This document shows, in pieces, positions 56,901 to 59,900 of a DNA stretch of 64,000 nucleotides. The stretch's first letter is position 1. Each line of letters starts with the position of its first letter. This DNA is from Monodelphis domestica (Eukaryota > Chordata > Mammalia > Didelphimorphia > Didelphidae). The position numbers were made by a program, and so were the translations under genes. The stretch spans positions 53,424,395 to 53,488,394 of the forward strand of contig NC_077235.1 in the NCBI RefSeq assembly GCF_027887165.1. Reading direction: 5' to 3'. The notes under the pieces are model-generated. The model saw nothing but the letters and a program-made list of their open reading frames with translations. It made no database searches and was not told where the DNA came from.

Positions 56901-59900
56901 TTTCCTGCCCCTCCCAGAGCGCTTCGACCATCATTGTCCCTGGGTTGGGAATTGTGTCGGCAAGAGGAACTACCGCTACTTCTACCTCTTCATCCTCTCT
57001 CTGTCCCTTCTCACCATCTATGTCTTCACCTTCAACATCGTCTATGTGGCCCTCAGTGAGTAAACGATGAGATGGGCATGGGTTAGGGAGAGCGTCGGGG
57101 TGGCGCTGAAGTCTGCCTTGGAAGTCTGATTGCTTTCCTGGGAGATCTGTGGAGCTGCCTCTGAATTTGGTGGAGGTGGGAATTACTGGCAATGGGAGGA
57201 GCCTTCTCAGCTTTTTTCACTTCAAGGCTTTGTTGAAGCCAGCTATGGGGTGGCCCAACTGACTTAGGAGATATAATGTCTGGTTTCAAGTCCCAGGTTG
57301 CTGGAAGTGACCTTGGGCACTGTTGGCTTCCCTTTGCACAGGAATAAAAGGAGATGGCAGGGCTGGGTGCCCTTGGCTCCCTTGTGGCAGCCTGCTCTCC
57401 TTAACAGGATCATTAACTTTGCTCTCTACCTCTCTTCCCACAGAGTCCTTGAAGATTGGCTTCCTAGAGACGCTGAAAGAAACTCCTGGAACATATCCTT
57501 GCTTTGGGAAGACGTTCTCTTTGGGGCCTTTCCCACTTGCTTCCCTGTAGTGCCTTATCATCTATTCCTTAGTCTGGCGGGGGGTTCCAAGCCCAAATAA
57601 TGTGACAGGTGTAGTGCTGACCAAAGCAGAGACAGACGGAACTGGGAGAAACCTTGGCATCTTCCAGATGGGCGAAACAAGACCTAGCTACTAAATAGCC
57701 GAGCTGAGACTGGACCTCATGCTTCCTCACCCCAGATTTCGTGTTCTTTTTCACTGCACCACTACCTCTGCCGAAAATTGGATTTCGGATGGGACCAGTG
57801 GTGATGATAGTCCAAATCTGTAACAATTGCACATGATCCCAACCACAGGAAAGGAACAGGAAGCTGTAGGGAGAGGTGTTTGTCTTTGGCGCATTTGGGA
57901 GCCACTTGACTTTATCTTTCTTGGCTTTTTTTCCTTTCTGAATTCATTTTTCCAAAGAGAGAGAGAGAGAGAGAGATGAAAGATAATAAGATATAGTGGA
58001 AAGAGCCCTGGACTTGCAGTGAGAAACTTGGGCGTGGTCCTTGGCTTCTTTTATTTAGGAGTTCTTAAGGAAAGTGAAAAGTTTTGGGAGCACGTTTGCT
58101 GTTTTTGTAGCTGCCTTTGACATCCTCTCAGAATCTAGTCTGTCTCCTGGCATGAAGTCCAAGGCCTTGGGTTTCAGATCCCGACTCTGTTACTTACTTT
58201 GTCACCTTTGACAAGTCACTCTCCTCTATCTGTGCCTTATTTTTCTGCATTCGTAAAATGGGGCAGTTGGACTAAGACTCTGAGAGCCTTTTCAGCTCTG
58301 TGGTCTTGGCACTAGATGACCTCACAGGTCTCCTAGCTGGATTCAGTCATCTTCTGTGTTCCTTAACGTGGGCTCACCGTGCTGGAAGTGCTTATCTGCT
58401 TCTTCACCCTCTGGTCTGTTGTAGGGCTGACAGGATTCCATACTTTCCTGGTGGCCCTCAACCAGACAACAAATGAAGATGTGAGTCAAGGCTTCCCCAC
58501 TTCATGTCGTGTTCCCCCCTGTGTCTCAGGGAGGGCCTCTGTCCTCTCAACCCAATGGGAGATTGGGACTTTAAGGCTCTCTGCGTCCATAGGTGGGCTG
58601 TGGAGGATCCTTGTCTTGGAGGACGAGATGTGCAAACCTGGAGTTGTTGAATATATTTGAAAGTCTAAGCAGGTTCAAATAGGGTGTCAAGCTGTAATGA
58701 GGAACAATAGGGAAACTCCAGTGTTTGGAATCTATTTTTAACCTGCCAAGTTGGCGTCAGGGAGGGCAGAGAAGACAGAGAAGTCGGTCCCTGTTAGAGA
58801 TGAGTTGGGCTGGAGAGAACATGGATGGGGCTGCAGTGCTCATGATCTTATTCAATCCAGCAAACATTGGCTCAAGCCTCTTGTGTGTGCGGGGCAATAA
58901 GTCCTTCGGTCTGTCAGCAGCCCCAAGCAGTGGGGAGCACAGATCCAAAGGAAACACGAGGGAGGGAAGGGTCTTTCCTTCAAGGAGCTGATAATCCAGG
59001 TTTGAAGAGGGCACCCCCATGGGAAATGACATGTCTGTATACAGAGAAACATGAAGCCACACAACTGGAGGGAATTCCCGGAAGGGCAAAGCGAAGGCTG
59101 TGGCTAAACAGAGAAGGCTCAATTCGGAAGAAGGGGGATGGGTGTGAATTGGCGGCCAGGGTGGAGGAGGGTGTTCCAGCTGGCAGGGATGTCGTGTGCA
59201 ATATTGTACAGCATAATATTATAGTCGTCCCCCTCCAAAACAGTGAGCTCCATAAAGGCAGACATCTTTTGTTATATAATCATCAGCACACACACATTCA
59301 CACATATATGCACCAAGTGCATCGCTGCACACAGTAGGTGCTTGAGAAATGTTTTGTAGAATTATCTAAAATTTGCTAGGTGCCAGGGGATGGAAAATGT
59401 TTGATCATCCAGTTCAGTGAACACTTAAGGTCCTACTGTGTGCTGAATACTGCTCAGTGTTGAGCAAAAAACAGTACAAGAAGTAGGTGCTTAGTACATT
59501 TGTTGAAGGGTATGTGTGTGTGCCAAGGCACATCAGGGTGAGTGTGGTTTGAACATGGAAAGGAAGTGGGTTTTTATTGTTAGGACAAAGGGTCCGGGGG
59601 AATGAAGATGGATGAAGCTAGAGGGATGGGACTGGGGGAGGAGCTCAGCTGGACAGGAGGGCCCTCAGAGGCTAGATTTGGCAGAAGGAGCCTTTGTCCT
59701 TGTCTTGCAGATTAAAGGTTCCTGGACAGGGAAGAACCGAGTACAGAACCCATACAGTCATGGCAACATACTAAAGAATTGCTGTGAGGTGCTGTGTGGC
59801 CCTTTGCCTCCCAGGTAAGAGGGGGTGGGAGGGAACAGACCCCATTTTCTCCTACTCCCTCTGCTGACTTCTTTCAGGGCTGGCCTCTTTTGGCCAAACC

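Follow-up and report, generated by a model that had tools for sequence, protein, structure and literature searches.

The ZDHHC9 gene in the window

The window, by which we mean the whole 64-kb stretch of DNA that was analysed (C9:53424395-53488394 of a 3.59-Gb assembly of 13 contigs), lies on a contig which we take to be the X chromosome of the grey short-tailed opossum, and on its plus strand it carries the ZDHHC9 gene. When the gene model was translated, its eight coding exons from 26774 to 60608 (Table 1) gave 326 residues without a stop, the start codon at 26774 being assumed. The DHHC palmitoyltransferase domain PF01529 was found in the model with a Pfam score of 130.6 bits. A joined stretch of 131 amino acids matched human ZDHHC9 (PDB 8hf3_A, residues 163-293) over its full length with two differences, and it was gap-free at the junction that is the subject of this study. 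Among solved structures human ZDHHC9 was the best match (8hf3, E 1.9e-88) and ZDHHC5 was the runner-up (9.1e-26). The best structure match and the DHHC domain together indicate that the gene is the ZDHHC9 orthologue. That it is instead a decayed copy, with an odd junction produced by the decay, is a reading with a negligible chance of being right, as we found no point that supports it, and an open frame of 326 codons over eight exons with two differences from the human protein in 131 residues speaks against it.

Table 1. Coding exons, intron signals and the stop reached upon retention, numbered by position in the window
Feature	Position	Strand	Remarks
ZDHHC9 coding exon 1	26774..26940	+	from assumed start codon; GT donor
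ZDHHC9 coding exon 2	49367..49527	+	exon model
ZDHHC9 coding exon 3	54427..54585	+	exon model
ZDHHC9 coding exon 4	56918..57055	+	carries FDHHCPW motif
ZDHHC9 coding exon 5 (exon 6 if a non-coding first exon is included)	57444..57492	+	ends CCT GGA AC; protein matches human ZDHHC9
U12-type AT-AC intron	57493..58377	+	885 nt, phase 2
5' splice site ATATCCTT	57493..57500	+	0 mismatches
First in-frame stop upon intron retention	57548..57550	+	243-residue product
Branch site TTCCTTAAC	58359..58367	+	no mismatch; branch A lies 11 nt from the intron end
3' terminal AC	58376..58377	+	read in sequence
ZDHHC9 coding exon 6	58378..58480	+	begins CGTGCTGG; read C GTG CTG GAA
ZDHHC9 coding exon 7	59711..59814	+	exon model
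ZDHHC9 coding exon 8	60512..60608	+	exon model
ZDHHC9 last coding exon	near 61540-61680 (approximate)	+	outside the 326-residue model

Upstream of the coding exons there is a GC-rich stretch at 24400-25850 (60% G+C over 24001-28000), which is likely to be the CpG-island promoter of ZDHHC9 with its non-coding first exon. On the minus strand, open frames at 5213-5722 and 21745-22089 resemble, as judged by eye only, pieces of a LINE-1-type ORF2. An Rfam search of the whole 64-kb window at gathering scores gave no match. An intronless copy of ZDHHC9, which would be a natural cDNA, was not recognisable among 31 genome matches with E up to 1, the exons of the gene itself included. The only long intronless DHHC copy (L001/L024, at C1:339.1 Mb), with one stop in its matched DHHC part, derives instead from an ankyrin-DHHC gene, presumably ZDHHC17-like, and is probably a processed pseudogene.

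The junction between coding exons 5 and 6

Coding exon 5 ends with GGAAC at 57492 and the intron starts with ATATCCTTGC at 57493, while its 3' end reads TTCCTTAACGTGGGCTCAC, closing with CTCAC at 58377, and exon 6 follows from 58378. In its immediate context the terminal AC reads GTGGGCTCAC and then exon. The codon of Thr-225 is split as AC/C by the intron and the protein across the junction is KETPGT/VLEVL. When scored against the consensus RTATCCTT for the donor and TTCCTTRAY for the branch site, neither the donor nor the branch site had any mismatch, and the published U12-type AT-AC consensus is donor ATATCCTT, branch TCCTTAAC and an AC acceptor (PMC2831892). The other introns between the modelled coding exons are all GT-AG (6 of 6) and their donors are unlike those of U12-type introns, with 4-6 mismatches to RTATCCTT in the first eight bases. 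The sequence-only reading had proposed an intron at 57493..58377 with the junction 57492/58378 and with the donor, branch site and AC end of a minor-spliceosome intron, and it turned out to be right to the base, with the branch A 11 nt from the end. Thus, a minor intron was located exactly from the raw sequence.

That reading had also maintained that the conserved protein can be joined across this gap only by an AT-AC intron, and this held when GT-AG, GC-AG and AT-AC pairs were scanned with donors in 57444-58099, acceptors up to 58469 and introns of at least about 60 nt. With thirteen junctions the frame stayed open through all of the remaining model, and none of these 13 was GT-AG. Only one of them, the AT-AC pair 57493/58377, yields the conserved protein as in human ZDHHC9 and it is the sole one with PGTVLEVL; a GT-AG junction that still encodes PGTVLEVL, sought at the level of genomic sequence and not of RNA, was not found in the scanned range. 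A GT-AG-only gene finder could therefore not have joined coding exons 5 and 6 in frame. It may be argued that the gap is nevertheless removed by the major spliceosome through a GT-AG or a GC-AG pair and that its AT-AC look is a coincidence, and U2-dependent AT-AC introns do exist according to PMC2831892. This is highly improbable, however, given that the frame is lost with every GT-AG pair within the range scanned, that the only GC-AG pair close by, 57501/58388, would change the protein and shorten it by one residue, that no pyrimidine tract was seen by eye upstream of the intron 3' end, and that the pattern is repeated in two paralogues. Moreover, U2-type AT-AC introns have G at +5 in the same source (PMC2831892) whereas the ZDHHC9 intron has C.

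How often such motifs arise by chance was examined in two kinds of shuffles. In 200 dinucleotide-preserving shuffles of one 64-kb strand there was a mean of 0.1 donor-branch motif pairs, and 8.5% of the shuffles contained one or more; one such pair is present on the real minus strand of the window. When the intron was shuffled 20,000 times by mononucleotides, the donor motif never came to lie at the first base (0 cases), and only three shuffles had the branch motif at 9-13 nt from the end. The motif pair by itself is therefore not very rare in 64 kb, but it is rare at positions dictated by the protein, and what makes the assignment to the U12 type secure is that the donor and the branch site sit at such positions and not the motif pair alone.

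The same intron position in the paralogues

Whether ZDHHC14 and ZDHHC18 keep this intron was a question that the sequence-only reading had raised, and in this genome both have the same phase-2 AT-AC intron. The two genes, on C2 and C4, respectively, are presumed to be ZDHHC14 and ZDHHC18 from the human sequences. In both, the end of the upstream exon reads CCAGCAAG directly before the donor ATATCCTT, exon 6 is preceded by TTCCTTGAC and AC, and there were no mismatches; the intron is 21,518 nt long in ZDHHC14 and 1,589 nt long in ZDHHC18. A U12-like GT-AG intron was also found in the gene at C6:19.73 Mb (L041), which is near-identical by eye to the human ZDHHC5 sequence in PDB, and in the gene at C3:15.6 Mb (L042), which we take to be ZDHHC8. 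The ZDHHC5 intron has the donor GTATCCTT, the branch site TCCCTTGAC and AG, is only 118 nt long and has no donor mismatch and one branch mismatch, and the ZDHHC8 intron has GTATCCTG, TGCCTTAAC and AG, is 632 nt long and has one mismatch in each. Human ZDHHC5 in PDB is continuous through the corresponding AVT/MAVM. A gene at C4:93.1 Mb (L017), presumably ZDHHC19, has the U12-like donor GTATCCTC at an in-phase, phase 2 position and no recognisable branch motif before its AG, and this intron is possibly on the way to becoming a U2-type intron. The scan of DHHC loci for U12-like sites covered L001-L038, with about 3 kb each and several of them from one gene.

In ZDHHC5, 8, 9, 14 and 18 the intron is in phase 2 throughout, and a gap-free count places GLxGFH 16 residues and TTNE 30 residues after the split codon. 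In an automatic alignment, the split codon of ZDHHC5, 8 and 19 was two columns off that of ZDHHC9, 14 and 18, which we attribute to gap placement; the gap-free count is preferred because this stretch is a membrane helix, as is generally known for DHHC enzymes. This offset, together with the different termini, would fit the possibility that the ZDHHC9 AT-AC intron is real and that the introns of ZDHHC5 and ZDHHC8 were gained independently nearby. We consider such independent gains improbable, since the phase and the codon distance to two downstream motifs are the same, ZDHHC5 and ZDHHC8 both have a U12-like donor and branch site, and AT-AC and GT-AG subtypes occur together in 36 clusters of corresponding introns, which are read as subtype switching in PMC2831892. 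One ancestral minor intron that was kept through the ZDHHC subfamily, with its terminal dinucleotides changed, would account for these sequences, and it is from such comparisons that we infer both the common origin and the direction of the change between the AT-AC and GT-AG forms. The present analysis adds the finding that the intron is kept in five paralogues of one genome, as AT-AC in ZDHHC9, 14 and 18 and as GT-AG in ZDHHC5 and 8, and this makes a small comparative case in which one U12 position in five paralogues has both forms side by side.

Splicing, retention and known minor introns

It is almost certain that the gap in ZDHHC9 is a minor-spliceosome AT-AC intron, and this intron was most likely already present in a gene ancestral to ZDHHC5, 8, 9, 14 and 18. 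What was observed in its favour is the sequence itself, a junction that is unique among those tried, the introns of the paralogues and the presence of U6atac genes. There are 46 U6atac matches above the Rfam cut-off in the genome, most of them probably dispersed pseudogenes, and the two that were examined keep AAGGAGAGAAGG. The acidic domain of SCNM1, a minor-spliceosome protein, gave two genome matches, one with 68.8 bits and another that scored lower and contains a stop. What speaks against the explanation is that the two matches found for U12 snRNA both look like degraded copies, among the 44 of 307,346 first-look candidates that were scored, and a sound U12 gene may therefore have been missed.

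The order of recognition by U11, U6atac and U12 is established for U12-type AT-AC introns. Following this order, the donor ATATCCTT would be read by U11 and then by U6atac, pairing of U12 with TTCCTTAAC would leave the branch A bulged out, and joining at the 3' AC, 11 nt downstream of the branch A, would restore Thr-225. Judging from its signals, the ZDHHC9 intron would thus be excised by the minor spliceosome. By the general layout of DHHC enzymes the Thr-225 junction would lie between membrane segments three and four, and the restored residue would be placed in the loop before the fourth. If the intron descends from the common ancestor of the five genes, its AT-AC form would mark the ZDHHC9/14/18 branch and its GT-AG form the ZDHHC5/8 branch.

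It had been claimed that failure to remove the intron would cut the protein after about residue 224, and the translation of the retained form bears this out, as it gave 224 native residues, Thr-225 and 18 foreign residues before the stop at 57548. Failed splicing would place this stop 18 codons past Thr-225 and ahead of later exon junctions, and the decay of RNA with such an early stop is expected; ZDHHC9 RNA that retains the intron should therefore stay in the nucleus or be degraded. As X-linked intellectual disability has been associated with ZDHHC9, it is worth checking whether this intron is retained in minor-spliceosome disorders. A more far-reaching idea is that, through a single inherited minor intron, the capacity of the minor spliceosome acts as a shared brake on ZDHHC5, 8, 9, 14 and 18, that some of the brain phenotype in RNU4ATAC- or U12-type disease stems from their joint loss, and that the AT-AC and GT-AG forms give the two sub-branches different efficiencies; this we put forward as a speculation that is rather unlikely to be correct.

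Minor introns have been described before in this enzyme subfamily. A GT-AG U12 intron of ZDHHC8 is listed as common to fly and human in Table 2 of PMC2831892, and that paper also describes two changes of this intron to the U2 type among dipterans. The fly homologue of ZDHHC8 appears among the U12 genes in an expression paper (PMC2952598). A survey of mouse and human counted 770 minor introns in human, about 22% of them AT-AC, and its main text names no ZDHHC gene (PMC6717393). In the other sources, the final intron of ZDHHC8, which is a different intron, is differentially retained in tumours (PMC10705125), ZDHHC16 is the gene concerned in PMC4863743, which is unrelated to the ZDHHC9 intron, and the ZDHHC9 passage in PMC5813380 is a table of pig isoforms. 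The intron of ZDHHC9, 14 or 18 is not named in the portions of the U12 literature that were examined. It is expected that the ZDHHC9 intron is already catalogued in minor-intron databases. Introns of this kind have long been known, this one is a textbook minor intron and ordinary in kind, and its rarity is below what the first reading suggested, as a U12 intron of the paralogue ZDHHC8 is already listed for both species, human and fly (PMC2831892).

When compared with the U12-type AT-AC introns of the class collected in U12DB and MIDB, the ZDHHC9 intron likewise has ATATCCTT, TCCTTAAC, an AC end and the branch A at about 11 nt, and it is an exact consensus case with no notable difference. It has its AT-AC termini in common with the U2-type AT-AC introns of sodium-channel genes, but those have G at +5, whereas ZDHHC9 has a full U12 donor and a branch site. 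A close published parallel is the GT-AG U12 intron of ZDHHC8, found in human and kept in Drosophila, in a gene of the same enzyme subfamily (PMC2831892). The ZDHHC8 intron of the present genome has the phase of the ZDHHC9 intron and the same codon distance to the downstream motifs, but its termini are GT-AG and not AT-AC and its donor, GTATCCTG, is weaker.
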